From a bacterium (lineage in GTDB: Bacteria; Desulfobacterota; Desulfocorpusculales; Desulfocorpusculum), in the NCBI GenBank assembly GCA_037481695.1, contig JBBFLE010000005.1:62001-126000 (forward strand): 64,000 nt of DNA, given 5' to 3'. The position numbers and the translations under genes are program-made. Below, piece after piece: positions 6,271-34,154 of this stretch. Under the pieces are notes generated by a model. It searched no databases and was not told where the DNA came from. It saw only the letters and a list, made by a program, of their open reading frames with translations. Position 1 is the first letter of the stretch; the number at the start of each line of letters is the position of its first letter.

Positions 6271-8880
6271 TCATGGGCCAGGGTCTTGGCCCGGGCATCC
6301 ACCCTGGTCTGCCAGAGTCCGGCAGCCATAATCCCCTTCCAGAAAGGCCCTGGACACAGCTTCCACAGCCGCTTCGCTGTGCATGAGCATGTCCATCTGG
6401 CGCGTGAATATGAGGAGCCTGCCCAGAAGATCCAGCTTTTCCTCCAGGGCTGCCCTATCCATCTTCTGAAGGCGCGCGGTCACCCGGTCCCCACAGACCT
6501 GCACAGAGAATCCCAGCTCTTCCATGACTCGGGCTATGGCCCTTGCTCTCCTGTTGCGCCTTATGTTGTCGGCAGCTCCTCCCTGGAAGGAAAAACTGAT
6601 GTAATTCTTGCTCAGGGTCTGGCCGCAGTATGTGTCCAAAACCCCGTAGTGATAACCCACCCTGGAGCTGAAGTTCATGTACCTGTCCGAGACTACGGCA
6701 AAGCTCCTTTCCCCGAAACGCTCCGATGCCAAGGGGTTGGTGAGCATCTGTTCTGTGATCACCGAAAACAGCCCCTTCCACTCTATGGGCCTGGGCTCCT
6801 GGGAGAGAAGACCCTCGTGGGTCATTCCCTTGAGCAGGGCCTTGAGGGGCCTGGAAACTATCTGGTGGAGACCCACCTCCCTGACACCTGATCCAAGATC
6901 CTGGAGTCCGCCCCCCAGGTCTATGATGTAGAGGTCTATGGGTACCCTGGCCTTCAAGTGTACGGCAGCGCCTGTCTGCTCTGATACCAGATCGCTTATC
7001 TTGAACATCTCTCCATAGGAGACCTCGTGGACAAAGCGCATGATGTCGTGCAGGGAACGGCACGCCTCGGGACGGAAATCCTCAGAAGAAGGGTCCACCA
7101 GGTGCAAGGGCACTATCCAGCGGGCCACCCGCTTCAAGGTCTCATGCACTGGTGTGCCCATCATCAGAGCCCTGCGCCGGGTCTGATTTTGCAGGAGTTC
7201 TTCCACTCGACCCTCATACACTCTCCCCGAGTCAGCATCCACTGTCACCACCATGCCCTGGGACACCTTAATGGTGGCTTCCTTGAGGTCCACCACGGTG
7301 GGAACCGAAAACTCCCTGGCAAGGGAGGCCATATGACCAGTAATGCTGCCGTGGTCTGTGAGCACTGCCTGGGCCTTGGGAAGGGCCAGCATAAACTTGG
7401 GTGAGGGCTGAGCAGCCACCAGGACTCCCCCTTCTGGGAAGGCCAACAGATCCTGTTCAGATCGCACGTGGAATGCCGGCCCGCAGCCCACCCCAGGGCA
7501 GGCAATGGCATCTCCCTCCAGAATGAGCCTGTAGCCCTCCACTGGCCTTGCTCTGAGCCTGGGAGGAACACCTTCCTGGCTCAACAAGACCAGGGGCCTA
7601 CACTGCAGCACAAATAACCTTCCCCTGGAGTCCAAAGCCCACTCCACATCCTGGGGCCTCCCAAAATGTTCCTCCAAGAGACTCATATACCTGGCAAGCT
7701 CCTGAACCTGTTCATTGCTCAGAGACGGGGCCTCCAGCAGGTCTTTTCCCACAGGGATACTTTGGAGACCCCCCTCTGGCCTTGGGACCAGCATAAGAGG
7801 TTTTCTAGATATTCTGGCCTCTACCTTGATTTTTCCGCTGGTTCTTTCCACCAGATATATGTCTGGACTGATCACACCTCCCACTGCATAAGGTCCCAGG
7901 CCCCACACCGAGCTTATCCAGATGCGCTGCTCCTTTGGATCAGAAGGATTTCTGCTGTACATGACCCCGCTTGCCCTGGCCTCCACCATCTCGAGGCAGG
8001 CAACGGCCATGGCCTGATCCTCGTCCCTTATTCCCCTGTGCAACCTGTAGGCCATGGCCCTCGGGGTGTACAGGCTTCCCAGGATGATCTTGTAGGTCTG
8101 GGGGATCTGCTCCACGGGCACGTTCAGAGATGAGAGGTACTGGCCTGCAAAGGAGAGTCCGCCTGTGTCCTCTCCGGTGGCGCTGCTACGCATGGCCACA
8201 CGGCTTTTTCCCCTGGAGAGCCAAAGGGCCTTAGCCTGGGCCAAGGCCTTTTCCAGTTGGGGAGGGATCTTGGCCAGCAGGATTCTTCTTTGAATCTCCT
8301 CGCTCATGGCAATTAGGCTCTGGGGGTCCTGAGGGGATATCTCCATCTGGAGCTTGGAGATCTCTTCTCTCAAGTCGTTGTAATCCATGAAGAGATGGAA
8401 TGCATGGGTTGTTATGGCAAAGCCATGGGGAACCGGAAGTCCCACCCTGTTTCTGACCTCTCCCAGATTGGCGTTTTTTGCTCCCACCAGGTCCAGGCAG
8501 TTGCGGTCTATGCTCTCATAAGGGAGGAGCAGCTCCTGGGCAGTCCGGGGGGGCTCCTCATGCATCTCGTTTCGTATTTGCCGGCTGATCTCTTCCAGAA
8601 CCCCATCCAGGCCCGGGTATCTGCCTCCCGAGAGACCATCCAGTGCTCTGACCATCCTATGGGTGTGAAAGACCGCCCTGGCCACGGCTGAGCGCACATA
8701 GGCCGTGCCGAAGATCGTATCGCCCCTTAGCTTCTCCTCCATGTCAGCGATGAGATCAAGGTTCTCGGCATTGGAGGCCAGGAGTTCCTGGAACAGGGCA
8801 TACTTGCGGCTGAAAAGCTCCCTGGAGCCTTCAGCAGGCAGAGCGCCCGGTTTCAGAATCCTCTTGAGCCTTTTCCACAC
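6271..8880 (-). CDS. PEP-synthase-like ATP-grasp/phosphohistidine protein with novel C-terminal domain (copy 1)
   Basis: 869 residues. Order: a helical N-terminal region (about 1-110), a PPDK/PEP-synthase ATP-grasp domain (about 125-440, with VGAKNANLGEVRN and VAMRSSATGEDTGGLSFAGQ), then the swivelling phosphohistidine domain with His516 in GSITGHMASLAREF. The PEP/pyruvate TIM barrel expected after this is absent. About 300 residues of unfamiliar sequence follow, with motifs shared by the copies at 14549-17254 and 31557-34154: SLHDIMRFVHE, DLGGG, RVGYHYGVLDT and NYISFSFQGGAAD. The protein may phosphorylate its His with ATP and pass the phosphate to an unknown acceptor (inference). GTG start after GGAGA. 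It lies 33 bases downstream of a membrane sigma-54 activator. Confidence 0.88.
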   Translation of the reverse strand: MWKRLKRILKPGALPAEGSRELFSRKYALFQELLASNAENLDLIADMEEKLRGDTIFGTAYVRSAVARAVFHTHRMVRALDGLSGGRYPGLDGVLEEISRQIRNEMHEEPPRTAQELLLPYESIDRNCLDLVGAKNANLGEVRNRVGLPVPHGFAITTHAFHLFMDYNDLREEISKLQMEISPQDPQSLIAMSEEIQRRILLAKIPPQLEKALAQAKALWLSRGKSRVAMRSSATGEDTGGLSFAGQYLSSLNVPVEQIPQTYKIILGSLYTPRAMAYRLHRGIRDEDQAMAVACLEMVEARASGVMYSRNPSDPKEQRIWISSVWGLGPYAVGGVISPDIYLVERTSGKIKVEARISRKPLMLVPRPEGGLQSIPVGKDLLEAPSLSNEQVQELARYMSLLEEHFGRPQDVEWALDSRGRLFVLQCRPLVLLSQEGVPPRLRARPVEGYRLILEGDAIACPGVGCGPAFHVRSEQDLLAFPEGGVLVAAQPSPKFMLALPKAQAVLTDHGSITGHMASLAREFSVPTVVDLKEATIKVSQGMVVTVDADSGRVYEGRVEELLQNQTRRRALMMGTPVHETLKRVARWIVPLHLVDPSSEDFRPEACRSLHDIMRFVHEVSYGEMFKISDLVSEQTGAAVHLKARVPIDLYIIDLGGGLQDLGSGVREVGLHQIVSRPLKALLKGMTHEGLLSQEPRPIEWKGLFSVITEQMLTNPLASERFGERSFAVVSDRYMNFSSRVGYHYGVLDTYCGQTLSKNYISFSFQGGAADNIRRNRRARAIARVMEELGFSVQVCGDRVTARLQKMDRAALEEKLDLLGRLLIFTRQMDMLMHSEAAVEAVSRAFLEGDYGCRTLADQGGCPGQDPGP

Positions 8881-8913: not shown

Positions 8914-11397
8914 TCACGCAGGATTGCCGGTTTTTGCGGGATAAACAACCTCATATTGCGTGGCAGGGCCCTTTCCTATCTTTCGCAAGAAGCCCCTTGC
9001 CACCATGTCCTGCAAGTCATAAAGGGCTGTCCTGGGGGGGAGCTTTCCCTGGAAGACCTCCTGGTATTCCAGCCTTGTTATGCGGCCCTGCTTTTGAATC
9101 ACTGGCCAGGCCTGCCTCTGCCTGTGGTTCAAGTCCAAAGGTACCAGGGAAGCGGCCTTGGGGGAAGCTGGCTGGAGCAATGGGATGTGCTCAGGCACTT
9201 GAGGCTTGCTGAAGCCTTTTTCACCCAGGGTTATGTCTTCGGCCAGTATCAGGCTACTGCTGGACATGGCAAGGGCCCTCGTCAGACAGTTCATAAGTTC
9301 CCTTACATTTCCGGGCCAGCTATAATTTTTGAGCTTTTCCAGGGCTCCACGGCTAAGTCCCACACCTTCTTTGTTCATCAGCCTGGCAGCCTGTTTCAGA
9401 AAGTGTTCCACCAACAAGGGTATGCTCTCGGGGTGTTCCCTCAGGGGCGGGGTCCTGATGGTCAGAACCTCCAGCCTGTAGTACAGATCCTCCCTGAAAA
9501 GTCCCTGTTGCACAAGCTCTTGCAGCTCTACATTGGAGGCCGCTATGAGCCTGACGTCCACATCCAGCTCCATATCGCTGCCCAGAGGCCGTATCTTGCG
9601 CATGGATATGGCCCTTAGCAGAGCCTGCTGGACCTTGGGGGAAGCTGTGCCGATCTCGTCCAGGAAAAGGGTGCCCTTGTGGGCTGCAAGAAAGGCACCC
9701 TTTCTGTCTTCCTTGGCCTCGGTGAAGGCGCCTTTGACATGCCCGAAGAGGGAGTCCATCAGAAGGCTCTCCTCCAAGGCCCCGCAGTTGATGGATATGA
9801 AAGGCTTCTGGCTTCTGGAGCTGTTGCGGTGAATGGCCTCGGCAACCAGCTGTTTTCCTGTGCCGGTCTCTCCTATAATGAGCACATCGGCTTCCACTGC
9901 CGCAGCCTTCACTATTTCTGCCTTAAGCCTTTCCACCAGAGGACCAACTCCAATGATCTCCTCCAAATGGGGAGTCGCTCCCAGACTCTTGAGAGTTCTT
10001 ATCTCCTCCTCCAACCTCACCTTCTCCCTTTGTCTTTCCAGCTCCAACTGCTGGTCTCGGGCCTGGATCTGAGCCATCTGTTCCTTAAGGGTAAAGATCA
10101 TCTGATTGATGGCCCCCTTGAGAACCCTGGTTTCATGGTCCCTGGCCTCCACTTCCAGAGTTTCCAGCTTCCCTGACTTCACCATCTCTTTGACCTTGCC
10201 TGCCATGCGCAGGATGGACCTGGTCAGTGCTTCACTGGTGGCAAAGATAACAGCGGAAATCAAGAAGATGGAGATCAGAGTCATCACGAACATCACGTCT
10301 ATCTGCCTGTAACCCGCCCAAAGGGGCAGGCGGCTTCTGTCCACGAAACATATGCCGAAGAGAACCGTGGGCTGCGCCTCCTTGGAACTGGTGAACCTAA
10401 CGGGTGCGTAACCCTGTGCTGTGGACACCTCGCCCGAAGATCTCCCTGAACGCAACACCCCATGCGCCCCTTGAAAAACCTCCTTCACCATGTTCCAGTA
10501 CAGGGTGTGTGTTTCATGGGGCTTGAAGGCTTTCTCCAGCCCCGGTCTTCCGAAAGTGCCTGAGAGGCCGTCTCTGGCCATCTCCACGGAGAGCTCCTTT
10601 GTCTGATCTTCGGCGGGTTCGGACTGAAATAGCATCCATCCTTCCCGGTCAAAGAGAAAACTGTACCTGGGCTCAGGACTTCTGGCAAAAGCAAAGAGGG
10701 GAGATCTGGGGGAGTTGAAAAGGGACATGATCTCTCTTAGCTGCCTCAGGTCCAGGCCCACCATGAGGATACCCTTGGGGGATGTGCCTTCGGCAAAATA
10801 AGGGGTGGCCATGCGGATCACCTGGGAGGTAATGGGTTGCGTGATGGAGCCGTCTGCAGAAGGGGGATAATCCACCTGCAGGATCTCCGAAACCCAGACA
10901 GCATCAGGCTTCATCTCGCCAATTCTTTCCAGAAGATGCAAAGGGCTAGGCTTCACCAAGCTCAAATCCTGGGACCTCAAGGCCATGGCTCCTTGACCTA
11001 TATCCAGGAGAAACACGTTCTCCTTTGCCTTGGGTGATATGAAAGCCACCTCCCTGTACATGTATCCCCTGGCTGCCTTCCTGGCCTCCACAGCCTTCAA
11101 GAGATCATTCTGAGCCACAGGCTGGCGGGCCATAATCAGCAGGTCTTCCCTGCATTGATGCAAGAAGATCTCAAGCTCGTGGGCCATTCCCAGGGTCTGG
11201 GTGGCCACGTTTCTATCCAGGGCCTCCTGGAGAAAACGATTGGCAAACCAATGGGTGATATACCCTGTCACAGCCAGGATCAGGACCACCGAAGGAATCA
11301 GGCTTAGAAGAAGACGGGTCCTGAGCCTCATGGACCTAAAGCCCATCCCCACTCCCTCTAGCTCCCAAGAGCCGTCCTCGAGCCTTATCACTCTCAT
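8914..11397 (-). CDS. Membrane-bound sigma-54 activator with periplasmic Cache-like sensor and winged-helix-like C-terminus
   Basis: 827 residues. Membrane segment near 24-46, a periplasmic sensor of about 310 residues, a second segment near 363-387, a linker with a coiled coil, then the AAA+ domain: Walker A GETGTGKQ at 509-516, GAFTEA near 555, Walker B GTLFLDEIG. The sigma-54 contact loop has Glu where GAFTGA has Gly; acidic variants are known in this family. The C-terminus is not a Fis helix; it reads like a winged helix (RITRLEYQEVFQG to DMVARGFLRKIGK). Start: ATG 11397 with GGGGAGG five bases upstream; the frame stays open to 11502. It probably regulates its own neighbourhood, including the divergent transport genes at 11639. 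Confidence 0.88.
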   Translation of the reverse strand: MRVIRLEDGSWELEGVGMGFRSMRLRTRLLLSLIPSVVLILAVTGYITHWFANRFLQEALDRNVATQTLGMAHELEIFLHQCREDLLIMARQPVAQNDLLKAVEARKAARGYMYREVAFISPKAKENVFLLDIGQGAMALRSQDLSLVKPSPLHLLERIGEMKPDAVWVSEILQVDYPPSADGSITQPITSQVIRMATPYFAEGTSPKGILMVGLDLRQLREIMSLFNSPRSPLFAFARSPEPRYSFLFDREGWMLFQSEPAEDQTKELSVEMARDGLSGTFGRPGLEKAFKPHETHTLYWNMVKEVFQGAHGVLRSGRSSGEVSTAQGYAPVRFTSSKEAQPTVLFGICFVDRSRLPLWAGYRQIDVMFVMTLISIFLISAVIFATSEALTRSILRMAGKVKEMVKSGKLETLEVEARDHETRVLKGAINQMIFTLKEQMAQIQARDQQLELERQREKVRLEEEIRTLKSLGATPHLEEIIGVGPLVERLKAEIVKAAAVEADVLIIGETGTGKQLVAEAIHRNSSRSQKPFISINCGALEESLLMDSLFGHVKGAFTEAKEDRKGAFLAAHKGTLFLDEIGTASPKVQQALLRAISMRKIRPLGSDMELDVDVRLIAASNVELQELVQQGLFREDLYYRLEVLTIRTPPLREHPESIPLLVEHFLKQAARLMNKEGVGLSRGALEKLKNYSWPGNVRELMNCLTRALAMSSSSLILAEDITLGEKGFSKPQVPEHIPLLQPASPKAASLVPLDLNHRQRQAWPVIQKQGRITRLEYQEVFQGKLPPRTALYDLQDMVARGFLRKIGKGPATQYEVVYPAKTGNPA

Positions 11398-11559
11398 AAG
11401 GGCCTCCCCAAAGATCTCATCATGGCTCCAAAGCGCCTTATTTTGCCATCTTGCGCGATTTCTCGCAAGAGTCAATTGAGGCATCCCCAGCCTGAAAAAC
11501 ATTCATGTTTTTAGCCTGTTAAAGATCTGTGGGATACTCTTTGAGGGATCAGTACTTCA

Positions 11560-11575: not shown

Positions 11576-11638
11576 TAAATGGTCATGAAGAGGGATCTCG
11601 CAAAGTAAAGAAAAATGGATCAGAGGAGGATGATGACA

Positions 11639-11959
11639 ATGGCGGGGAAAATAAGAGGAGTGAAGAACAGAGTCTTGTGGGCCTTGGGTGCATGGAGTCT
11701 CTCCTTGTGGTTACTTCTCCCAGACTGGGTGTGGGCCGCAGGAGAAAAGGCCACAAACCTGGTTGTGGTGGCAGACACCAGAAGGCTTTCGGGGATCATG
11801 AAGTACTTTGCCAACCTTTACAACACCAACACTCTTCTTTTTGCCATTTGGGCCGTGGTTCTGACAGCTCTTTGGGGGGCCATCCTGGGTTTCTTGATGG
11901 ATTTTCTGATGCAGCGCACAGGCCTGGATCTCAAGTCCAGAAAAATCGTAGAGCACTGA
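11639..11959 (+). CDS. Small membrane protein, TSUP-associated (set 1)
   Basis: A 106-residue protein with an N-terminal signal or anchor segment (LWALGAWSLSLWLLLP to VWAAG), a short periplasmic stretch, and one C-terminal membrane helix (LLFAIWAVVLTALWGAILGF) followed by a basic tail ending RKIVEH. The tail resembles the end of the protein at 21703-22260 (MKIRKIDHYGH), and all three TSUP permeases here have such a neighbour. Start: ATG 11639 nine bases after GAGGAGG; ATGs at 11615, 11630 and 11633 are possible. It ends 13 bases before the permease. Probably a permease accessory subunit; no function is established. Confidence 0.8.
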   Translation: MAGKIRGVKNRVLWALGAWSLSLWLLLPDWVWAAGEKATNLVVVADTRRLSGIMKYFANLYNTNTLLFAIWAVVLTALWGAILGFLMDFLMQRTGLDLKSRKIVEH

Positions 11960-11972: not shown

Positions 11973-13013
11973 ATGGACTGGCTATACCTTTACATGCCCA
12001 TTGCCGGGGTTACCATCTTTTGGCCGGGGCTCGTGTTGATCGGGTTTTCGGTGGGTGTGCTGGGGGGCTTCTTCGGCATGGGTGGCGCCTGGATGGTTAC
12101 CCCCGGGCTCAACATACTGGGGTTTCCCATGGCATTTGCCATAGGCACTGACATGGCACACATCGCTGGCAAGTCCATGATCTCCACCATGCGCCACTCC
12201 AAATTCGGGAACGTGGACTACAAGCTGGGCCTCATAATGGTTCTTGGCACCTTCATAGGCATCGAGGTAGGGGCTCAGCTGGTCATGTACCTGGAGCGGC
12301 TGGGCAAGGTGGAATCCATAGTGAGATGGGTTTATGTGGGCTTCCTGGCCCTCATCGGCTGGATGATCTTCTACGATTACTACAAGGCCACCCGCAAGAA
12401 GAGGATGGGCCTTGTGGAGGGTGAAAAGGGAACAGAGGGCATAACCTGGTACAAGACCCTGCACCGCATAAAGATCCCGCCCATGGTGCATTTCAAGACA
12501 GCAGGGTTCACCTGCTCCATGTGGCTTCCCATAATCGTGAGTTTCATGACCGGCCTTCTGGCAGGCTTTCTGGGCATCGGGGGTGGGCTTCTCAGGATGC
12601 CAGCCCTGGTTTACCTCATAGGATGCCCTACACACATAGCCGTGGGAACAGATCTTTTCGAGGTCATGATCTCGGGGCTGTATGGTGCCTTTACCTATTC
12701 CATGAAGGGAAGGATCGAGCTGGTGGGTGTATTTGTTATGCTCACGGGTGCGGCCATAGGAGCTCAGATAGGCACCGTGGCCACCAAGTATGCCAAGGGC
12801 TACGGCATAAGGCTGGCTTTCGGCACCTGTGTGGTGGTCTGCATGATATCAATAATCCTCAAGGAATTTCGCTTCAGCGCTATTTCCGCGGCTCTCATCC
12901 TGGGCACCATAGGGATCATGTCAGCATATATCACTGTGATCATGCTCAAAGGGGCAGCAGAGGAGCTGCGAGAGAAAAAAGCCAGGGAGCGAGCCGTTGT
13001 CAAGGCTGCTTAG
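11973..13013 (+). CDS. TSUP (TauE/SafE) family permease (set 1)
   Basis: A 346-residue inner-membrane permease of the TSUP family, whose members move sulfite, sulfonates, sulfoacetate or other small organic anions. The two internal repeats are visible: GFFGMGGAWMVTPGLNILG with IGTDMAHIAGKS near residues 35-70, and GFLGIGGGLLRMPALVYLIG with VGTDLFEV near 200-235. A cytoplasmic loop separates the halves. AGGAGG precedes the ATG. It is cotranscribed with a small membrane protein upstream and a secreted protein downstream. The substrate cannot be read from sequence. Confidence 0.92.
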   Translation: MDWLYLYMPIAGVTIFWPGLVLIGFSVGVLGGFFGMGGAWMVTPGLNILGFPMAFAIGTDMAHIAGKSMISTMRHSKFGNVDYKLGLIMVLGTFIGIEVGAQLVMYLERLGKVESIVRWVYVGFLALIGWMIFYDYYKATRKKRMGLVEGEKGTEGITWYKTLHRIKIPPMVHFKTAGFTCSMWLPIIVSFMTGLLAGFLGIGGGLLRMPALVYLIGCPTHIAVGTDLFEVMISGLYGAFTYSMKGRIELVGVFVMLTGAAIGAQIGTVATKYAKGYGIRLAFGTCVVVCMISIILKEFRFSAISAALILGTIGIMSAYITVIMLKGAAEELREKKARERAVVKAA

Positions 13014-13684: not shown

Positions 13685-14125
13685 ATGGAAAAGGCCAGGG
13701 TTCTGCTGGTGGATGACGAGGGGGAGTTTCTTGACTCCCTGGTGAAGGTCCTGGGCCGAAGGGGGCTTGAGGTAGAGGGGGTCACAAGCGGCCAGGAGGC
13801 CTTGGAAAGAATGGAGAAGACCCCTTTTGACGTGGTGGTCCTGGATCTCATGATGCCGAACATGGATGGTATGGAGACCTTGAAGCGCATCAAGAGCGCA
13901 TGGCCTCAGACAGAGGTAATACTGCTTACTGCGGTGGGCTCCGTGGACATGGGCCTGCAGGGCATGAGTGCAGGAGCCTTCGACTATGTGCTGAAGCCCA
14001 TGGACGTGGATGAGCTGGTGGAGAAGATAAAGCAGGCCCATGAACGAAGTTGGCTACAGTTGGAGGCATCCCTCGGTTGGGCCTCCCCGGATGACCAGGG
14101 GGATGAGCCAAAGCCAGGGAGGTGA
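13685..14125 (+). CDS. Receiver-only response regulator with altered switch motif
   Basis: A 146-residue CheY-like receiver: Asp54 in VVVLDLMMPN, Lys in YVLKP. The residues after the switch Thr read TAVGSVD instead of the TGH seen in its paralogues. About 25 polar residues follow the domain. It ends four bases before the next receiver's ATG, so two receivers close the set 1 transport unit. Confidence 0.93.
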   Translation: MEKARVLLVDDEGEFLDSLVKVLGRRGLEVEGVTSGQEALERMEKTPFDVVVLDLMMPNMDGMETLKRIKSAWPQTEVILLTAVGSVDMGLQGMSAGAFDYVLKPMDVDELVEKIKQAHERSWLQLEASLGWASPDDQGDEPKPGR

Positions 14126-14129
14126 TGCC

Positions 14130-14537
14130 ATGGCTAGGGCCACAAGGGTACTTCTCATAGACGATGAGGAGCTCTATGCCGAATCCCTGGCAAAGGTGCT
14201 TAAGAGGAGGGGCATGGAAGTCTTTACTGCCAGGGACGGTGCCAGCGGCCTTGCCTGGCTGGAGTCCAACCAGGCCGATGTGGTGGTCCTGGACCTCAAG
14301 ATGCCGGGAATGGACGGAATAGCCACCATGGAGGGCATAAGGCATAGAGATGCCTCGATACCCATCATAATGCTCACGGGCCACATAGACCTGGAGAGGG
14401 TCACCAAGGCGCTTCAGGGAGGAGTCGGAGATATCCTACTGAAACCCTGCCCTGTGGATTCCCTGGTTGCAGCCATAGAGAATGCCAAAGAGCGCCATCT
14501 GGCTGCCCAGGCCCTCAAGGAAAAAGGGGCTGAGTGA
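14130..14537 (+). CDS. Receiver-only response regulator
   Basis: A 135-residue CheY-like receiver with acid pair D11-D12, Asp55 in VVVLDLKMPG, switch Thr in IMLTGHIDLE and Lys in ILLKP. ATG 14130 follows AGGGAGGT. Its stop lies only 11 bases from the stop of the converging copy 2 ATP-grasp gene. Confidence 0.94.
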   Translation: MARATRVLLIDDEELYAESLAKVLKRRGMEVFTARDGASGLAWLESNQADVVVLDLKMPGMDGIATMEGIRHRDASIPIIMLTGHIDLERVTKALQGGVGDILLKPCPVDSLVAAIENAKERHLAAQALKEKGAE

Positions 14538-17254: not shown

Positions 17255-17655
17255 GGAGGGCCATCCATGCAATTCCTGGGGGGAGATTGCCCCTGGCCGG
17301 CAGCTTTTCTTATGAGCTCGATGAGATCAGCTATGGGATGGGGCTTGAGCAAGTAAGCGAAGGCCCCCACCAGCCGACCACTTTGCTCCTCGTCTGGGGA
17401 GATATGCCCTGTCATGAGGATCACCTGCATGCCGGGAGCCATTTGCCTGAAACGCTTGAGAAGGCACAGACCATCCTGCCCGGGCATCTTCACATCCAGC
17501 AGGGCCACATGAAATGATCCACTCTCCATCAGGTCCATAGCCTGCTCACCTCTCAGGGCCACCTGCACATGGAATCCCCTTCGGGTGAGCACCTTGGCCA
17601 GACCCGCGGCGAACTCCTGCTCGTCGTCCACTATCAACACCCGGATGCTTTCCAT
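17251..17655 (-). CDS. Receiver-only response regulator
   Basis: A 134-residue receiver with D10-D11, Asp54 in VALLDVKMPG, switch Thr in ILMTGHISPD and Lys in YLLKP. It sits between the Cache kinase (38 bases upstream) and the ATP-grasp protein (four-base overlap downstream). That order suggests kinase to receiver to enzyme; the last step is inference. Confidence 0.94.
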   Translation of the reverse strand: MESIRVLIVDDEQEFAAGLAKVLTRRGFHVQVALRGEQAMDLMESGSFHVALLDVKMPGQDGLCLLKRFRQMAPGMQVILMTGHISPDEEQSGRLVGAFAYLLKPHPIADLIELIRKAAGQGQSPPRNCMDGPP

Positions 17656-22401: not shown

Positions 22402-22416
22402 GCAAGGGGAGTGCCA
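22402..22416 (-). promoter_or_regulatory. Consensus sigma-54 promoter for leftward operon
   Basis: On the minus strand TGGCAC-TCCCC-TTGC matches the -24/-12 consensus exactly, with correct spacing. Transcription should start near 22390 and run into the TSUP-associated gene at 22260. It lies in the 375-base gene-free stretch 22261-22635 between divergent units; apart from this promoter and the dyad at 22515-22531 I see nothing else there. Confidence 0.85.
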
Positions 22417-22514
22417 TGAGGCTTGGGGGGTGGAAAAGGGCCAAAAAGCGGCCTCTGGTGGCATGGGGGGCCAAGCTCTATTCATTGGTGGAAGAAAAGG
22501 GGCATGCAGGATTT

Positions 22515-22531
22515 CTTTACAGCCTGTAAAG
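22515..22531. promoter_or_regulatory. Palindrome, candidate activator (UAS) site
   Basis: CTTTACA-GCC-TGTAAAG is a perfect dyad with seven-base arms. Its centre is about 133 bases upstream of the inferred start of the leftward sigma-54 transcript, a normal enhancer distance. A nearly identical dyad lies upstream of the rightward sigma-54 promoter. The likely binder is the NtrC-type regulator at 24108-25541, by position (inference). Confidence 0.6.
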
Positions 22532-22635
22532 CCCTGATGCAGCCTGCGGGGAATTCCCCCAAACGGGCAGGTCGATGTTTATCCTGGTTTCCCCCTCATT
22601 GCCTGCTGCTTTGCCCTGTGCTATATGGTGATCCC

Positions 22636-25765: not shown

Positions 25766-26206
25766 TTGAGCAGGCAGGTCAGAATCCTGGTTGCAGACAG
25801 AAACCGTCACGTGCGAGAGTTCCTGCAGAGGGAGCTGGCGGCCGAGGGCTTTTGCGTGGAGACAGCGGCAGACGGCCGGGAAGTGCTGGCCAGGATGGAG
25901 CTGCAGCCTCTTCCAGAGCTCTTGGTGCTGGATTTGGAACTGCCTTTTGTTGAGGGCTGCGAGGTGGCAGCTAGATTAAAACAAATGGGAGTAAGGATCC
26001 CCATCGTGGTGCACAGCTTACCTCCGCGATCCCCTCTGCCGTGTAGTGTGGAGGAAATAGGCCCTTTTGTGGAGAAAAGCGGAGAAAACATCCAGGGGCT
26101 CACCTGCATCATCTGGAAATCCCTCAGAGAGGCTTATCCCGGCCGCTTTCCTGCCCCACGGGGGCCCCAGGAGCCTTGGGATGATGCCCCGCCCGGAGCT
26201 CCTTGA
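25766..26206 (+). CDS. Degenerate receiver-domain protein
   Basis: 146 residues. A CheY-like fold with Asp56 in LLVLDLELPF. The acid pair is reduced (VADRNRH), the switch residue is Ser (VVHSLPP) and the Lys is in PFVEKSG. A Pro-rich tail of about 30 residues follows. TTG 25766 is six bases after GGAGGAG and just downstream of a sigma-54 promoter, which fixes the start; the longer frame from 25538 would cross the promoter. Phosphorylation may be weak or absent. First gene of the rightward operon. Confidence 0.75.
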   Translation: MSRQVRILVADRNRHVREFLQRELAAEGFCVETAADGREVLARMELQPLPELLVLDLELPFVEGCEVAARLKQMGVRIPIVVHSLPPRSPLPCSVEEIGPFVEKSGENIQGLTCIIWKSLREAYPGRFPAPRGPQEPWDDAPPGAP

Positions 26207-26345
26207 TCCATGCAGCAGAATCTTCCTTTGCAATGTTTTTCCTGGTATGTTTGCAGCAGGCTTTGTGCTTAGCAAAGAGACTTCCTGTAATGGGAAAGAA
26301 CCTACCCAGAGGACTTTCCTTACCAGGAAGGGCCGTGGAGCCGGG

Positions 26346-28067
26346 ATGCAGCCTTTCTCCATCTCCAGCCGCGACATGGTCGGGCCTGGCTTCTACAGAT
26401 CCCTCAGGCGCAACATTCTGCTGGTCATAGTGCTGGTTTCCTTTGCCCCCTTGGTCCTGATAACCGGACTCATAGGCTATTTTTTCCACACCTCTTATCA
26501 GAGCAAGGTGGTGGCCCATTTGGTGGAGCTTGTGGAAAAGCACAAGCAGACCATAGACAGCTTTCTCTATGAGCGGCTCTCTGGCATAGCCCTCATTGCG
26601 CGCACCTTCGATTTTGAGCAACTCAGCAATGAGATGTTCCTCAGGGAGAAACTCTCAGCCCTTAGGGAGGAGTACGGGGGCATATTCGTGGACCTGGGGC
26701 TTGTGAGCGACCAGGGCATCCAGATAGCCTATGCAGGCCCCTTCGAGCTTCGCCGGGCCCTTTACTCAGAGGCGGACTGGTTCAAGAAGGCCATGCAGAG
26801 CCAGGTCTTCATTAGTGATGTTTTCACTGGCCTCAGGGGTATGCCCCATTTCATAGTGGCCGTAAAGAGGACTTACGGCTCCAGGGAGTGGATCCTGAGG
26901 GCCACCATAGATTTTGTGGCCTTCAACTCCCTCGTGGAGTCAACCAGAATGGGCACAACCGGATCGGCATTCATAGTCAATAGAGCCGGAGAGTTCCAGA
27001 CAAGGCCTCGTTTAGAGAAGTTCGTGCACAAGGAGATGATAATCCAGTTTCTGTCCAGCCCATCCCTCAAGGAGCGTGTGGCTGTCCTGGAGCAGGGTGA
27101 TCCCTCGGGCCGAAAGTTTCTTTATGTGATGACACCCCTCAAGAATGGTGAGTGGATATTGGTATACCAGCAGGACGAAGACGACGCCTTTGCCGACCTG
27201 TACAGGGCCAGAAGATGGGCCTTTGCCATAGTGCTTCTGGGGGGCATAGGAATAGTGGCCACATCCATTGCTCTTTCCCGGCGCATGGTGCACCGCATAG
27301 AGCGGGCAGACAGGGAAAAGGAGATGATGAACGAGCAGGTGATAGAGGCCGGGAAGCTGGCTTCAGTGGGAGAGCTGGCAGCGGGAATAGCACACGAGAT
27401 CAACAACCCCGTGGCCATAATGGTGGAGGAGGCCGGCTGGATAGAAGATCTTCTGGAGGATGAGGAGTTTCGCTCCAGCGCCAATCTGGAGGAATTCCGA
27501 AGGGCGGTTCGCCAGATCCAGACCCAGGGTAGGCGTTGCAAAGAGATAACACACAAGCTCTTGAGCTTTGCCCGCAAGACAGACCCCAAGCTCAAAGAAG
27601 TGAACATGAACGAGCTGGTCCAGGAGATGGCGGCTCTCTGCGAGCAAAGGGCTCGCTTCAGCAACGTGCGCATAGAGTTGCATCTGGATCCGGAGCTTCC
27701 CCTCATATGCGCATCTCCTTCAGAGATGCAGCAGGTGTTCCTGAACCTCATCAACAACGCCCTGGATGCCATGGAGAAAACAGGAGGCAAGATAGACATA
27801 ACCACGCGCCTGGACGGAGACAGTGTGGTGGTGGATGTGGCTGATACAGGGGCGGGCATCCCCCAGGCCAATCTTCAGAGAATCTTTGATCCATTTTTTA
27901 CCACCAAGCCTGTGGGCAAGGGAACTGGTTTGGGGCTTTCCATCTGCTATGGTATCATCCACAAAATGGGAGGCGAGATCAGCGTGCAAAGCGCTGTGGG
28001 GGTAGGCACGGTGTTCCATGTCCGACTTCCTCTTCCCAGAGGGCAGGCGGGCTCGCCGTGCGCATGA
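26346..28067 (+). CDS. Membrane sensor histidine kinase with periplasmic Cache domain
   Basis: 573 residues. Membrane segment near 20-44, a Cache-like sensor (GGIFVDLGLVSDQGIQIAYA, WILRATIDFVAF), a second segment near 290-312, then His350 in AAGIAHEINNPVAI, N-box LNLINNALDAM, G1 DTGAGIP and G2 GTGLGLSI. ATG 26346 has GGAG five bases upstream; the frame is open to 26067. Paralogue of the kinases at 2672 and 17693. Three receivers follow directly and are likely phosphorylated by it. Confidence 0.93.
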   Translation: MQPFSISSRDMVGPGFYRSLRRNILLVIVLVSFAPLVLITGLIGYFFHTSYQSKVVAHLVELVEKHKQTIDSFLYERLSGIALIARTFDFEQLSNEMFLREKLSALREEYGGIFVDLGLVSDQGIQIAYAGPFELRRALYSEADWFKKAMQSQVFISDVFTGLRGMPHFIVAVKRTYGSREWILRATIDFVAFNSLVESTRMGTTGSAFIVNRAGEFQTRPRLEKFVHKEMIIQFLSSPSLKERVAVLEQGDPSGRKFLYVMTPLKNGEWILVYQQDEDDAFADLYRARRWAFAIVLLGGIGIVATSIALSRRMVHRIERADREKEMMNEQVIEAGKLASVGELAAGIAHEINNPVAIMVEEAGWIEDLLEDEEFRSSANLEEFRRAVRQIQTQGRRCKEITHKLLSFARKTDPKLKEVNMNELVQEMAALCEQRARFSNVRIELHLDPELPLICASPSEMQQVFLNLINNALDAMEKTGGKIDITTRLDGDSVVVDVADTGAGIPQANLQRIFDPFFTTKPVGKGTGLGLSICYGIIHKMGGEISVQSAVGVGTVFHVRLPLPRGQAGSPCA

Positions 28068-28106: not shown

Positions 28107-28544
28107 ATGGCAGGTGCGGTTGTGATGCTTGTGGATGACGAGGTTCCCTTTGTGGAGACCATGACCAAGCGCCTCACCAGGAGGAATCTCACGGTGTTGG
28201 CTGCATTCAGCGGGCCCGAGGCGCTCAAGAAGCTGGATGAGACCCATAACGTGGACGTGGTCATCCTGGACGTGAAGATGCCTGGAATGGACGGCATAGA
28301 GACGCTGCGGGAGATCAAGCGCCAGCATCCTCTGGTAGAGGTGATCATGCTCACCGGGCATGCCACGGTGGAGACTGCCATAGAGGGGATGAAGCTGGGG
28401 GCCTTCGACTATCTCATGAAGCCCTGCGAGGTGGAGCAGCTTTTGGCCAAGGTGGAGGAGGCCAAGGCCAAAAAGAGCCAGCACGAAAGAAAAATAATGG
28501 AAGCCCGCATGAAGGAGATCACCTCCAGGCGGGGATACGATTGA
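28107..28544 (+). CDS. Receiver-only response regulator
   Basis: 145 residues: Asp55 in VVILDVKMPG, switch Thr in IMLTGHATVE, Lys in YLMKP, and a charged helical tail (about residues 120-145) like that of the receiver at the left edge. First of three consecutive receivers after the Cache kinase. Confidence 0.94.
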   Translation: MAGAVVMLVDDEVPFVETMTKRLTRRNLTVLAAFSGPEALKKLDETHNVDVVILDVKMPGMDGIETLREIKRQHPLVEVIMLTGHATVETAIEGMKLGAFDYLMKPCEVEQLLAKVEEAKAKKSQHERKIMEARMKEITSRRGYD

Positions 28545-28554: not shown

Positions 28555-28962
28555 ATGGGCGATTCGGGCCCAGCTCATGAAGCTCCTATTCGCCTGCTTC
28601 TGGTGGACGACGAGGAGGGCTACGTGCATGTCCTGGCCAAGCGACTGGGCAGGCGCAAGATCCAGGTGACCCCGGCTCTGAGCGGCCAGGAGGGGATTCA
28701 ACAGCTTCGCCGCCAGGATTTTGATGTGGCCGTGCTGGACCTCAAGATGGAGGACATGGACGGCATAGAAGTGCTTCGCATATTCAAGCGAATGGACCCT
28801 GAGATGCCGGTAATCATGCTCACGGGCCACGGTTCAGAGAAGGCAGCCCGTGAGGGCCTGGAGCTTGGTGCCTTTGACTACCTCACCAAGCCGTGCGATC
28901 TGGAGGAACTATTGACCAAGATTCGCGAGGCCTGCCGGAGGGGAGGTGAGGGTAGTGGGTGA
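28555..28962 (+). CDS. Receiver-only response regulator with substituted proline
   Basis: 135 residues: acid pair at 18-19, Asp62 in VAVLDLKMED, switch Thr in IMLTGHGSEK, Lys in YLTKP. The nearly invariant Pro after the phospho-acceptor loop (KMP) is Glu here (KMED), unlike its neighbours. It ends within the start region of the next receiver. Confidence 0.93.
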   Translation: MGDSGPAHEAPIRLLLVDDEEGYVHVLAKRLGRRKIQVTPALSGQEGIQQLRRQDFDVAVLDLKMEDMDGIEVLRIFKRMDPEMPVIMLTGHGSEKAAREGLELGAFDYLTKPCDLEELLTKIREACRRGGEGSG

Positions 28963-29392
28963 TTTGGGAGTCTTGTTGGTGGATGACGAACTGGAATTCC
29001 TGGAGACCCTGGAGAAGAGGCTCCGCAGGCGAAACATGCAGGTCAGCATTGCCACAAGCGGGGAACAGGCCCTGGAGGTGCTGGGGCAGAGGACCCCTGA
29101 TGTGGTGGTGCTGGACGTGAAGATGCCTGGAATGGATGGCATAGAGACCCTGCGGGAGATAAAGCGGAGGGCCCCTCTGGTGGAAGTGGTAATGTTGACC
29201 GGGCATGCCAATGTGGAGGTGGCCATCCAGGGCATGGAGATGGGCGCCTTCGACTATCTCATGAAACCAGTGGACATAGACGAGCTGGTGTACAAGCTCC
29301 AGGATGCCCACCGGAGAAAGAGTCTTCAGGAGGAGAGGATCCGGGAGCTGGAGGACAAAGGCAGGCTTTCCGGGCCAGGCCCAGGCGGCTAG
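28946..29392 (+). CDS. Receiver-only response regulator
   Basis: About 148 residues: Asp57 in VVVLDVKMPG, switch Thr in VMLTGHANVE, Lys in YLMKP, then a charged tail. GTG at 28946 or 28955 can start it; both follow a GGAGG-like site, and the gene overlaps the preceding one by up to 17 bases. Third receiver in a row, 71 bases before the set 3 permease. Confidence 0.93.
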   Translation: MRVVGDLGVLLVDDELEFLETLEKRLRRRNMQVSIATSGEQALEVLGQRTPDVVVLDVKMPGMDGIETLREIKRRAPLVEVVMLTGHANVEVAIQGMEMGAFDYLMKPVDIDELVYKLQDAHRRKSLQEERIRELEDKGRLSGPGPGG

Positions 29393-29463
29393 AGACCGTA
29401 TCCATCGGGTGTTGGCCTGCGCTGAAGCTGAGATCTGGCGGAGCAAAAGGAGGTGTGATGCAG

Positions 29464-30744
29464 ATGCGGAAATGGAAGGCGGTTTACAGGATGTTGGTTG
29501 CGGCAGCGATCGCCCACGCCCGGTGGGAAAAGGAGATGTCAGACAACCTTTTTCGCAGCAAAAGAAGGCTCTTGCTGCTTGCGGCCCTAGGAGGTGGGGC
29601 AGCCCTTGTCTCGGTGGCCCTGGCCTCTGATTTACCCAAGGTGCTGGGCGGCAAGGAGGCCTACACGCCCTCTTTCTACACTCCCACCACCTTTCTGGTG
29701 TCCACTGTCATAGGTCTTTGTGCAGGGCTCATAACAGGAGCCATAGGAGCCGGCGGAGGCTTCATCATAACCCCTGCTTTGATGAGCGCCGGGGTGAAGG
29801 GAATCCTGGCTGTGGGCACAGACCTTTTTCATATCTTCGCCAAGGCCATCATGGGCACGGTGGTGCACAAGAAGCTGGGAAACGTCTCGGTGAGCCTGGC
29901 CATAGCCTTTCTGGTGGGATCTGTCCTGGGGGCCACCGGGGGCGGACTCATAAACAGGGCCCTTTATGAGACAAACCCGGTCTTGAGCGATACCTTCATC
30001 AGCGTGGTTTACGTGCTTCTGCTGGGGTTTTTGGGGATTTACTCCCTGATGGACTTCCTGAAGCTAAGAAGGATGGGAGATCAGGTGGGTCCACATCACG
30101 GGGAGAGTCCCCATGGAGCTGAGGCGGCAAAGGCGGACAAGGGACTTCCGGCCAAGCTCCAGGCAGCCCGCATTCCACCCATGCTTACCTTTGACGAGGA
30201 CCTGGTGCCTGGAGGCAAGAGAATCCCAGCCCTCTTCGTGGCCATATGTGGGGCAGTGGTTGGGTTCGTGGCCTCCATCATGGGGGTGGGAGGAGGTTTT
30301 CTGACCTTCCCCATGTTCGTGTACATACTCGGGGTTTCCTCCTTCACCACCGTGGGCACTGACGTCCTGCAGATCATATTCACGGCTGGCTACGCTGCCA
30401 TAAGCCAGTATGTGATCTACGGTTTTATCTTCTACACCCTGGCCATGGGCATGCTGCTGGGTTCACTCATAGGGATACAACTGGGGGCCATGACCACCAA
30501 GGTGGTAAAGGGAATATACATCAGGGGATTCTATGCCACCGCGGTCTTGGCCGGTTTCATAAACAGGCTCTTCGCCCTTCCCAAACAGCTTAGGGAAATG
30601 GAGATCCTGGACATTTCCAAGGGAAGCGTGGATCTCATTTCCAGCGTGGGCAACTGGGTCTTCTTCATAGTGGTGGGGATCTTTGCCTTCTGGGTCATCA
30701 GCAAGTTCGTAAGCAATATCCGTGTGCTCAAAGGGGAGGGCTGA
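29464..30744 (+). CDS. TSUP (TauE/SafE) family permease (set 3)
   Basis: A 426-residue permease, longer than the other two because of an N-terminal extension with an extra hydrophobic segment and a His-rich central loop (PHHGESPHGAEA). Family repeats: GAIGAGGGFIITPALMSAG with VGTDLFHIFAKA, and SIMGVGGGFLTFPMFVYILG with VGTDVLQI. I chose ATG 29464, eight bases after AGGAGG; GTG 29455 and ATG 29458 are alternatives. It belongs to the rightward operon and ends three bases before its small partner gene. Confidence 0.9.
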   Translation: MRKWKAVYRMLVAAAIAHARWEKEMSDNLFRSKRRLLLLAALGGGAALVSVALASDLPKVLGGKEAYTPSFYTPTTFLVSTVIGLCAGLITGAIGAGGGFIITPALMSAGVKGILAVGTDLFHIFAKAIMGTVVHKKLGNVSVSLAIAFLVGSVLGATGGGLINRALYETNPVLSDTFISVVYVLLLGFLGIYSLMDFLKLRRMGDQVGPHHGESPHGAEAAKADKGLPAKLQAARIPPMLTFDEDLVPGGKRIPALFVAICGAVVGFVASIMGVGGGFLTFPMFVYILGVSSFTTVGTDVLQIIFTAGYAAISQYVIYGFIFYTLAMGMLLGSLIGIQLGAMTTKVVKGIYIRGFYATAVLAGFINRLFALPKQLREMEILDISKGSVDLISSVGNWVFFIVVGIFAFWVISKFVSNIRVLKGEG

Positions 30745-30747
30745 AAA

Positions 30748-31455
30748 ATGGTGGTGGTAAACAAGAAACAATTCAGGATAGGGATTTTTATGACCATTAG
30801 CTTTTTCGTGGTGCTCTTTATCATGTTCTCTCCACTTTTCGGCGGTAAGAACGCCTTTGAGGCAGCAGATGACTTCTTCAACTCCATAGCCAAAGGATCC
30901 ACTTATTACATGGAGGATCTAAGAAAGACTGCAGAGAAGTTCAAAGGAAGGCTGATAGAGGTCCATATCAAGCTGGGGGATGCCAAGGCCGCTTCCTCAA
31001 CAGCTGTTATGCTAAAGAAGGCAGGGCTCTTGGTGGAGGAGTCCGCACAGCAATTGAGAGCCGCAGGTGAGCTCTTCAAGGTAACCCAGGCGGCCATCCA
31101 GGACTCAGAGAACATGTTCCACAACAAGGGACAGGAGGTCTCCAGCCGGTACGGTTTGCCTGAGAAGGAGGCCCTTTACCTTTGGTGGACGGCATTTAGG
31201 GAAATAGAAAAGGACCTCAAGCGCCAGAAGAAGTTCGAGGAGGCGTCCTGGCTTTCTACTGTCTCCAAGAAGGCACTGGAGGTGGGCTACAATTTCTACG
31301 GCATCCAGGCCAAGAGTGCTTCTGCCACAGCAGGAGGCCTGGCTTTTTCACTGGTTTTTTACGTGCTCTACACCTTGTGGTGGGGTTATGCCATCCTGTT
31401 TTTGTGTGAGGGGCTGGGCCTCGAGATGAAGCCTGGGGGCAAAAAAGAGGTCTGA
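30748..31455 (+). CDS. TSUP-associated membrane protein (set 3)
   Basis: 235 residues: N-terminal helix (IGIFMTISFFVVLFIMFSPLF), a helical, probably coiled-coil periplasmic domain of about 160 residues, and a C-terminal helix (GGLAFSLVFYVLYTLWWGYAI) followed by LFLCEGLGLEMKPGGKKEV. The end resembles those of the partner proteins at 11639-11959 and 21703-22260, although the periplasmic parts differ. ATG 30748 has GGAGGG seven bases upstream. Probably a dedicated subunit of the set 3 permease; no function is established. Confidence 0.8.
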   Translation: MVVVNKKQFRIGIFMTISFFVVLFIMFSPLFGGKNAFEAADDFFNSIAKGSTYYMEDLRKTAEKFKGRLIEVHIKLGDAKAASSTAVMLKKAGLLVEESAQQLRAAGELFKVTQAAIQDSENMFHNKGQEVSSRYGLPEKEALYLWWTAFREIEKDLKRQKKFEEASWLSTVSKKALEVGYNFYGIQAKSASATAGGLAFSLVFYVLYTLWWGYAILFLCEGLGLEMKPGGKKEV

Positions 31456-31556
31456 GGGTGATTTTGGGGGGGGTAGGCTCTTGGGCCCCTTAATGTGGCC
31501 CTGGCCCTCCTCCCTTGGTGCCTTGCCTGAAAAGAGTCTCCTCTCAGGGGTTTAGC

Positions 31557-34154
31557 ATGTCAGCCCTGGTGAAGTTGTTCAACAAGATCCTGCCTCGCAG
31601 CAGGAGAGAAGAAAGTCTGCCCTCTGATCCCGAGAGCCTAAGAGCAGCATTTCGCTCCAGGTACCACAGCTTCAGATTGCTTCTCACGGCCAATACCAGG
31701 GCCCTGGAGACAATGAGCGATATGGAGATGGCTGCCAGGGGGGACCGTCCCTTTGGCATGTCCTTCATCAGGGCCAATGTAACGGCAGTCACGGTGAATG
31801 TGTTTCGCATCATAAAGCATCTGGACGAGCTGGCCCCCGGCAAGTACAGGGCGCTTTTTGCCAGATTCCGTGAGATACAGGAAAGAATTGACCGGGAGAT
31901 GGCTCCTCATGAAATTCCTCTGGCCCATAGATTGGTCTACTCGCTCCAGGAAGTGGACAGGCACATGGCGGATCTCGTGGGGAGCAAGATGGCCAACCTG
32001 GGAGAGGTAAGAAACCGCATGGGGCTGAAGGTGCCCCCTGGCTTTGTGATCTCCACCCTTGCTTACAGGCGCTTCATGGATGAGAACGATCTTCAGGCAG
32101 AGATAGACAGGAGGCTTCAGGCCACAGAGCTTCAGGACATGGCCGACCTTTATGGGCTCAGCGCATCCATCCAGCAACTTATCCTGAGGTGTCCGGTTCC
32201 AGGGGATGTGGCAGATGCCATACAGGATGCTTATGGGAAGCTGGAGGCCGAGGCTGGAGAGGGCATCACGGTGTCCATGAGAAGCAGCGCCCTGGCCGAG
32301 GACTCGGCTGGCACTTCCTTTGCGGGCCAGTACCGATCCATCTTGAATGTCAGCAGGGATAGCCTCCTGGAGGCCTACAAGGAGATCCTGGCCAGCAAGT
32401 ACAGCGTTCAAGCCATGGCTTACAGGCAAGGCAGGGGGATTCGGGACGAGGACGTGGCCATGTGCGTTGGCTGCATGGCCATGGTGAAGGCAAGGGCCAG
32501 CGGGGTCATGTACTCTCGCGCCCCGCTGAACATAAGGGATCTCTCGGTGCACATAAACTCTGCCTGGGGGCTTCCCAAGTCCGTTGTGGATGGGAGTGTG
32601 ACTCCTGATCTGTTTGTTGTGGCCAGGGAGCCTGAGCTGGCCCTGGTGCGAGAGGAGATAAGGCGCAAGGAGAGGGCCTTCGTGTGTTATCCCCAGGAGG
32701 GGGTCTGCAGGCTGGATCTCACAGGAGAAGAGGCCATGGCTCCGTCTCTTACCCGGGACCAAGCCCTGGAGCTGGCCCTGGTGGCCATCAGACTGGAGGA
32801 ACACTATGGAGTTCCCCAGGACATAGAATGGGCCCTGGGAGAGGACGGTTCCCTTTATGTCTTGCAGTGTAGACCCCTGAAACAGATGCAAGGCAAAGCA
32901 CTGGAAGAGCCGTGGGAGGGCACAAGGCTGCTCGGGGTGAGCCCTCTTTTGGCCGGCGGAGCCACGGCCAGCCCGGGAGTGGGGGCCGGTCCAGTCTTCA
33001 AGGTGAAAAAGGATGCAGACCTCTTGAGATTCCCGGAGGGGGCGGTTCTGGTGGCCTCACAGGCCCTGCCCAGATGGGCCGCGGTATTGAGCCGGGCTGC
33101 GGCCGTGGTAACGGAGCAGGGTAGCGTTACAGGGCACCTGGCCAATGTGGCCAGGGAGTTCGGGGTGCCGGCCTTGTTGGGTCTTTCCAATGCCATGACG
33201 GTCCTGGAGGATGGGATGCTGGTGACCGTGGATGCCGAGGGTCTCAGGGTCTACCAGGGCCAGGTGGAGGGGCTCTTGGAAAGGCAACCCAAGGGCCCAA
33301 GCCTCATGGAAGGGAGCCCTGTGCACATGGTATTGAGGAGGGTCATGGAGCACATAGTTCCCCTTAACCTCATAGATCCGGACAGCCCCTTGTTCAAAGC
33401 CGAGCGCTGCCAGACTCTCCATGATATAACCCGTTTTGCCCACGAGAAGTCGGTGGAGGAGATGTTCAATTTTGGCAAGGCCCATCGCTTCACAGAGCGC
33501 ACCAGCAAACAGCTTTTGTGTCAGGTGCCCATGCAGTGGTGGATCCTGGACCTGGAGGATGGCATATCCCACGAGGCACAGGGCAGGTACGTGAAACTGG
33601 AGCAGATCCGCTCCATTCCCATGCTGGCTCTTTGGGAGGGCATAACGGCGGTGGCCTGGGAAGGGCCCCCACCAGTGGATGCCAGGGGGTTCATGTCAGT
33701 GATGGTCCAGGCCACTTCCAACCCTGCCTTGGACCCATCCATGCAGTCCCCCTACGCCAACAGGAACTACTTTATGATCTCCCGCAATTACTGCAGCCTG
33801 AATTCGCGCTTCGGATTTCACTTCTCGGCAGTGGAGACCCTGGTGGGAGAGCGCCCTCCCGAGAACTACATAAGCTTCCAGTTCAAGGGAGGGGCGGCGG
33901 ATTTTCCCAGAAGGGTGGCCAGAGCGGTCTTTGTGGCAGACATCCTAAGAGGATACGGTTTCAGGGCCGAGGTGAAGGAGGACGCTGTGTTCGCCCGCCT
34001 GGACGGCGGGGAGGAGTCCTTCATGTGCCATAGGCTAAAAGTTCTGGGCTATCTGATAATCCACACCAGACAACTGGACATGGTCATGGCCAACCAGGCC
34101 GCGTACCAAAGACAAAGAGAGAAGATCCTTTCAGATCTGCAAGGGCTGGCTTAG
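31557..34154 (+). CDS. PEP-synthase-like ATP-grasp/phosphohistidine protein with novel C-terminal domain (copy 3)
   Basis: 865 residues, same layout as copies 1 and 2: helical N-terminus, ATP-grasp domain (VGSKMANLGEVRN, SMRSSALAEDSAGTSFAGQ), phosphohistidine domain with His527 in GSVTGHLANVAREF, then the unfamiliar domain (TLHDITRFAHE, LDLEDG, RFGFHFSAVET, NYISFQFKGGAAD). The motif DLGGG is altered to DLEDG here. No PEP-binding barrel is present. ATG 31557 follows AGGGG by seven bases. It is the last gene of the rightward operon. The catalytic His is kept in all three copies, so phosphotransfer is probably retained; the acceptor is unknown. Confidence 0.88.
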   Translation: MSALVKLFNKILPRSRREESLPSDPESLRAAFRSRYHSFRLLLTANTRALETMSDMEMAARGDRPFGMSFIRANVTAVTVNVFRIIKHLDELAPGKYRALFARFREIQERIDREMAPHEIPLAHRLVYSLQEVDRHMADLVGSKMANLGEVRNRMGLKVPPGFVISTLAYRRFMDENDLQAEIDRRLQATELQDMADLYGLSASIQQLILRCPVPGDVADAIQDAYGKLEAEAGEGITVSMRSSALAEDSAGTSFAGQYRSILNVSRDSLLEAYKEILASKYSVQAMAYRQGRGIRDEDVAMCVGCMAMVKARASGVMYSRAPLNIRDLSVHINSAWGLPKSVVDGSVTPDLFVVAREPELALVREEIRRKERAFVCYPQEGVCRLDLTGEEAMAPSLTRDQALELALVAIRLEEHYGVPQDIEWALGEDGSLYVLQCRPLKQMQGKALEEPWEGTRLLGVSPLLAGGATASPGVGAGPVFKVKKDADLLRFPEGAVLVASQALPRWAAVLSRAAAVVTEQGSVTGHLANVAREFGVPALLGLSNAMTVLEDGMLVTVDAEGLRVYQGQVEGLLERQPKGPSLMEGSPVHMVLRRVMEHIVPLNLIDPDSPLFKAERCQTLHDITRFAHEKSVEEMFNFGKAHRFTERTSKQLLCQVPMQWWILDLEDGISHEAQGRYVKLEQIRSIPMLALWEGITAVAWEGPPPVDARGFMSVMVQATSNPALDPSMQSPYANRNYFMISRNYCSLNSRFGFHFSAVETLVGERPPENYISFQFKGGAADFPRRVARAVFVADILRGYGFRAEVKEDAVFARLDGGEESFMCHRLKVLGYLIIHTRQLDMVMANQAAYQRQREKILSDLQGLA

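Follow-up and report, generated by a model that had tools for sequence, protein, structure and literature searches.

A three-copy ATP-grasp and phosphohistidine protein with an uncharacterised C-terminal domain, beside predicted anion transporter and signalling genes in Desulfocorpusculum

Domain organization of the three copies

The 64,000-nucleotide stretch of contig JBBFLE010000005.1 from a bacterium of the genus Desulfocorpusculum (assembly GCA_037481695.1, positions 62,001–126,000), hereafter the window, encodes three copies of a protein in which the ATP-binding and phosphohistidine parts of phosphoenolpyruvate (PEP) synthase are retained and an uncharacterised third part takes the place of the barrel. 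The open reading frames of copies 1, 2, and 3 comprise 869, 907, and 879 residues, and copy 1 has 41% identity with each of the other two. A sequence-only reading of this DNA had placed the copies at 6271–8880, 14549–17254, and 31557–34154. All three frames are confirmed, and the two starts that differ from those in Table 1 are internal ATGs, which are the likely start codons. The ATP-grasp family PF01326 (PPDK_N, E-values of 6e-79 to 9e-98) and the swivelling phosphohistidine (His) domain PF00391 match all three copies far over their cut-offs, and the two matches are separated by 37–45 residues. The swivelling histidines are those that had been named, at residues 516, 535, and 527 of copies 1, 2, and 3, counted from the start positions of the sequence-only reading.

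The extra domain is located C-terminal to the His domain. Its approximately 290 residues have no Pfam match over the cut-off in the three copies, and Pfam together with NCBIfam detected nothing reliable C-terminal to the ATP-grasp and mobile domains. The motifs (S/T)LHD..R..HE, R.G(Y/F)H, NYIS, and GGAAD, which had been named for the shared domain, occur once each per copy. The absence of the PEP/pyruvate TIM barrel, which had also been claimed, is corroborated: the barrel family PF02896 has no match at E ≤ 1 to the whole proteins of the three copies and none at E ≤ 10 to their isolated C-terminal regions. Structure prediction gave a C-terminal fold (pLDDT 88) other than a TIM barrel, the predicted secondary structure does not contain an eightfold strand/helix repeat, and the models show a different domain rather than a divergent PEP-binding barrel with its catalytic residues. 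A comparison of the predicted fold with the PDB provided no convincing match. The copies score 332.3, 297.9, and 352.5 bits against the PEP synthase model TIGR01418 (cut-off 739.75), and 205.1, 189.7, and 239.1 bits against the rifampin phosphotransferase model NF041857 (cut-off 999).

The host genome has the C-terminal domain at three places, all inside the window and within the same 28 kb. PF02896 matches at two places, both on contigs other than that of the window, and one separate barrel-bearing frame is 971 residues long. The host is likely a sulfate or sulfite reducer, because its dsrA match exceeds the curated cut-off. The dsrA match (G000:C7:149136-150317) has one TAG within the matched stretch, which may be the end of the gene itself.

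Table 1 Features of the window that are discussed in the text
Feature	Position	Strand	Remarks
Copy 1	6271..8880	-	N-terminal helical part, then ATP-grasp domain (residues 130-436)
Copy 1, phosphohistidine domain	residues 481-552		His516 at 7333-7335
Copy 1, C-terminal domain	6334-7167		about residues 572-849
Sigma-54 activator	8914..11502	-	sub-threshold dCache match; directly upstream of copy 1, same strand
Small membrane partner of type-1 TSUP	11615..11959	+	114 residues; no Pfam family
TSUP permease type 1 (PF01925)	11973..13013	+	
Single receiver protein (PF00072)	14040..14537	+	
Copy 2	14549..17272	-	likely start at 17254; His at 15650-15652; C-terminal domain about 14633-15463
Single receiver protein	17251..17655	-	overlaps start of copy 2
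dCache histidine kinase	17693..19405	-	copy-2 gene run
Type-2 partner protein	19413..20156	-	no Pfam family; relatives occupy same position
TSUP permease type 2 (PF01925)	20619..21695	-	
Type-2 membrane partner	21703..22485	-	two predicted transmembrane helices; sub-threshold MoeA_N match
Histidine kinase	22423..24123	+	first gene of copy-3 signalling run
NtrC-type response regulator	24108..25541	+	
dCache histidine kinase	26067..28067	+	
Receiver protein	28107..28544	+	
Receiver protein	28555..28962	+	
Receiver protein	28946..29392	+	
TSUP permease type 3 (PF01925)	29455..30744	+	
Type-3 membrane partner	30748..31455	+	two predicted transmembrane helices, long stretch between
Copy 3	31515..34154	+	likely start at 31557; His at 33135-33137; C-terminal domain about 33294-34136

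Relatives and their gene neighbourhoods

With the C-terminal region of copy 1 as the query, 2008 of 7180 candidate proteins matched at E ≤ 0.001. Among the 120 matches listed, all carry PF01326 and all but one also PF00391; the readable source names among them are pyruvate, water dikinase, PEP/pyruvate-binding protein, and PEP-utilizing enzyme. A scan of genome contigs, mostly from metagenome-assembled genomes in which taxonomic outliers may be binning errors, retained 77 loci. Most of these belong to Thermodesulfobacteriota, and the remainder are binned as Nitrospirota, Acidobacteriota, Myxococcota, Chloroflexota, Ignavibacteria, and others. The domain was matched in 147 of 395 genomes of a phylum sample at E ≤ 0.001, with one match marginal, and in 68 of 99 genomes of one family. 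The ATP-grasp residues K135, R231, E413, Q426, and R428, the phosphohistidine H516, and the C-terminal residues D612, R615, H618, H744, G768, R778, and D830 are invariant in an alignment of 84 full-length relatives.

Each copy had been described as lying close to a TSUP permease and receiver genes. Three of the eight TSUP genes of the host neighbour the copies, accompanied by several receiver genes (Table 1), and other genomes preserve this association with TSUP. TSUP is present at 49 of the 77 loci and TSUP or DASS, a Na/sulfate symporter, at 53; among the 52 loci longer than 12 kb, 43 have TSUP or DASS. Receivers are found at 52 of the 77 loci and at 39 of the 52 long ones. Twenty regions from 20 other families include TSUP in 15 cases, TSUP or DASS in 16, a receiver in 16, and a kinase in 15.

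The neighbourhoods can be divided into four settings. That of copy 1 combines a membrane partner of about 100 residues with a TSUP permease of about 350 residues and often a sigma-54 activator, whose pairing with a family member recurs at several other loci. The setting of copy 2 contains a membrane partner of about 190 residues, a TSUP permease, and a protein of about 225 residues. The membrane partner in the window probably starts near position 22263, because many relatives measure 185–195 residues. The third setting, that of copy 3, pairs a TSUP permease of about 425 residues with a partner of about 235 residues that has two transmembrane helices, and the fourth has DASS, often with a protein presumed to be CBS-like. 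The copies of the window belong to three clades of a quick tree built from 84 proteins, and these clades differ in their transporter settings. Partner type, labelled as the nearest partner within four genes and absent from 28 rows, changes 10 times on the tree, compared with 30.7 times for shuffled labels; no partner group forms a single clean clade (2, 6, 7, and 5 changes).

Several other genes were observed around the copies. A receiver (9–401), a 204-residue protein that is presumably CBS-like (398–1012), and a DASS gene (1096–2565) lie in a row upstream of copy 1, and the same pair of CBS-like protein and DASS also flanks family members in other genomes. A dynamin-family GTPase (35017–36798) is positioned next to a 272-residue protein with several CxxC motifs (34229–35047), relatives of which were found in two of the sequences searched, possibly counting the window itself. 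Two adjoining genes at 37037–40218 have MutS domain V as their sole MutS domain. On a host contig upstream of the window, a Lon-type protease with a receiver domain (L117:5402-7432) lies near two further TSUP genes and kinase and NtrC genes. This region recalls DVU3303-3305, a set of Lon, kinase, and regulator that the relevant passages of PMC10102598 link to an anion transporter.

Loss of the phosphohistidine domain and the nitrate cluster

One branch of the family matches the nitrate cluster of Desulfovibrio, as judged by gene order. As stated in the passages of Korte et al. 2014 (PMC4001038) on this cluster, insertions in DVU0251, DVU0250, DVU0247, and DVU0246 result in growth of D. vulgaris with 100 mM nitrate as without it, and D. 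alaskensis mutants disrupted in the homologues have positive fitness values when nitrate is present. In the same passages, DVU0251 is a TauE permease and DVU0247 a receiver, and DVU0246 is listed with PPDK PEP/pyruvate-binding and mobile domains and no C-terminal barrel. The cluster behaves as if it admitted nitrate, perhaps through a leaky thiosulfate transporter; this is the suggestion of PMC4001038 itself, whose thiosulfate data are given there as unpublished. In genomes of one family, the gene set of the nitrate cluster recurs, whole or largely, around the PtxB-like gene, and the C-terminal domain is part of the PPDK-like protein in all 20 regions chosen from 142 matching genomes. A TSUP open reading frame was picked in 15 of the 20 regions, and in these 15 it shares the strand of the PPDK-like gene and lies upstream of it. 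Therefore, a polar effect on the transporter is an unlikely cause of the phenotype; the orientation of the D. vulgaris genes is taken from gene numbering.

Of 40 nitrate-type clusters fetched, 39 with a C-terminal domain match were compared (L205 was dropped). Of these, 22 encode an intact protein, in every case with a receiver no more than 1.5 kb away. The remaining 17 belong to one genus and encode dead proteins, from which the mobile domain is wholly gone (0/72 columns), together with most of the checked ATP-grasp residues. The receiver is absent at 16 of the 17 dead-protein clusters, and TSUP is present at all 17 as well as at 21 of the 22 intact ones. This pattern is suggestive of a lineage that lost the His domain first and the receiver later. 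Median ratios of non-synonymous to synonymous differences (pN/pS) in the dead remnants are 0.16 in the N-terminal part, 0.38 in the ATP-grasp part, and 0.26 in the C-terminal domain; they were calculated from 134–136 pairs with synonymous sites near saturation and are therefore rough. The ratios indicate that the remnant is under purifying selection.

A comparison of 106 intact with 17 dead proteins separates the C-terminal residues into two sets. H611, H618, R740, G742, H744, Y760, and D830 are lost, and with them L594, P597, C607, G703, and A770; D612, R615, E619, N759, G767, G768, R778, and others are kept. We read the lost set as a putative site working with the phosphohistidine, and the kept set as serving the fold or docking. 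Another family member (L211:1-1512) has the altered C-terminal motif LHD..Y..SE and possibly represents another partly dead lineage.

Possible function and comparison with known systems

The protein is likely an ATP-powered switch for small-anion uptake rather than a metabolic enzyme, because most relatives examined adjoin predicted anion transporters and signalling genes. There is, in our judgement, an even chance that it is an ATP-fuelled phosphohistidine effector by which a sensor/receiver pathway would switch a TSUP or DASS transporter on. A receiver-gated effector acting on the transporter is favoured because the dead versions stay under selection and the mutants share a phenotype. A regulator with a docking role is favoured because a metabolic enzyme losing its catalytic residues is not expected to remain under selection beside a transporter. 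In the proposed mechanism, ATP would phosphorylate His516, and the swivelling domain would carry the phosphoryl group to the C-terminal site with H611, H618, R740, H744, Y760, and D830. The receiver, which is without an output domain, would gate this cycle or exchange phosphoryl groups with it. The N-terminal helical part and the conserved rest of the C-terminal domain may mediate docking to the transporter or to its small membrane partner, because they are the best kept parts of the dead versions. Candidate acceptors of the phosphoryl group are the C-terminal site, a small molecule bound there, the receiver, and the transporter. With a fairly low probability, the system could also resemble the phosphotransferase system (PTS) driven by ATP, in which the swivelling His would exchange phosphoryl groups with the stand-alone receiver and the new C-terminal acceptor and so set TSUP or DASS activity in sulfur-cycle bacteria.

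Several observations weigh against the effector. Effects on the transporter may be transcriptional or indirect. Receivers were not found at 13 of the 52 long loci although the protein is present, and four of these 13 adjoin a sigma-54 activator. One of the dead-protein clusters (L190) retains its receiver, and the joint loss of His domain and receiver is that of one lineage rather than of independent events. Genomes with dead versions often hold other family members (3–6 domain matches in G401, G439, G463, and G480), which could therefore do the work. The intact proteins of the nitrate clusters (18 proteins) are only about 29–35% identical to the copies of the window, so that the nitrate phenotype is transferred to these by inference. 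In the passages of PMC4001038, the kinase of the D. vulgaris cluster is annotated as a pseudogene and therefore cannot drive the receiver there, the pooled and isolated-mutant data for DVU0250 disagree, and DVU0245 mutants remain nitrate-sensitive. DVU0246 is annotated with 2235 bp, shorter than its intact relatives of roughly 815 residues or more.

The sequence-only reading had left a choice between a phosphorelay and a substrate-activating enzyme. The retention of dead versions and the co-loss of the receiver favour the signalling and transport-control side of it, and substrate activation stands as a possible, rather doubtful rival. In that case, an imported anion or organic acid would be phosphorylated at the expense of ATP, with the Arg- and His-rich C-terminal domain as the acceptor site, in a way similar to the action of rifampin phosphotransferase on its drug. 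The first two domains are the same as in rifampin phosphotransferase, 106 intact proteins conserve the residues of the C-terminal site, which disappear together with the His domain, and different clades accompany different transporter settings. However, insertions in the PPDK-like gene mimic the loss of the transporter, which is not obviously expected of a downstream enzyme (passages of PMC4001038), 17 dead versions are retained under selection beside the transporter, and proteins that lack the His domain mostly have no adjacent receiver either (16/17). A direct phosphorelay, in which His516 would donate to, or accept from, the Asp of the neighbouring single-domain receiver without a classical kinase, is unlikely. 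It would account for the receiver adjoining 22 of 22 intact proteins and being absent at 16 of 17 that lack the His domain; the 22 aligned cluster receivers retain the Asp, Thr, and Lys positions by eye, and the receiver and the PPDK-like gene matter in D. vulgaris despite the pseudogene kinase (passages of PMC4001038). However, adjacent kinases are usually present and could serve the receiver, the 13 long loci lack one, and the C-terminal site residues are left without explanation.

It is very improbable that the gene merely rides with TSUP clusters through operon inheritance and that the mutant phenotypes are polar. The clusters are inherited mostly as blocks within clades, and the passages of PMC4001038 report no complementation of the PPDK-like gene; however, this gene accompanies its transporters across four settings and 16 of the 20 families sampled, and the upstream position of TSUP makes polarity on the transporter unlikely. 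It is scarcely credible that the protein is a divergent PEP synthase or PPDK whose barrel has gone unrecognised, in spite of the source names pyruvate, water dikinase and PEP/pyruvate-binding protein, given the missing PF02896 match and strand/helix repeat, the NCBIfam PEP synthase scores of 298–353 against a cut-off of 740, and the separate barrel-bearing protein of the host.

Should the family members prove to be transport switches, they would connect ATP, two-component signalling, and small-anion uptake in sulfur-cycle organisms. They would also explain the nitrate resistance of mutants in PPDK-like genes, which bears on the nitrate treatment of oil wells. Many members bear the source name pyruvate, water dikinase without a detected PEP barrel, and such naming would mislead models of carbon metabolism in sulfate reducers. 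The dead versions provide a genetic handle on which residues matter.

The genetics of the Desulfovibrio nitrate cluster has already reached a gene with the ATP-grasp and mobile-domain architecture (passages of PMC4001038). DVU0251-DVU0245 and Dde_0597-0605 share with the family's clusters TSUP, a small protein, a PtxB-like protein, a kinase, a receiver, and a PPDK-like protein whose annotation lists only ATP-grasp and mobile domains; those passages describe a nitrate-resistance locus and do not cover the C-terminal domain, the wider family, or how the PPDK-like gene would act. PEP synthase, or pyruvate, water dikinase (PDB 2ols, 8a8e), has the same order of an ATP-grasp followed by a swivelling phosphohistidine domain, with 30% identity to 2ols across the aligned part (residues 116–558). 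Unlike PEP synthase, the copies have no detected barrel, an extra N-terminal helical part, another C-terminal domain, and transporter neighbours. PTS enzyme I receives its phosphate from PEP via a barrel; by contrast, the copies have an ATP-grasp domain and no barrel was detected in them. In rifampin phosphotransferase (PDB 5hv1-5hv3), the drug-binding domain lies between the ATP-grasp and His domains. The alignment to 5hv3 extends up to its residue 866. The copies place their extra domain after the His domain.
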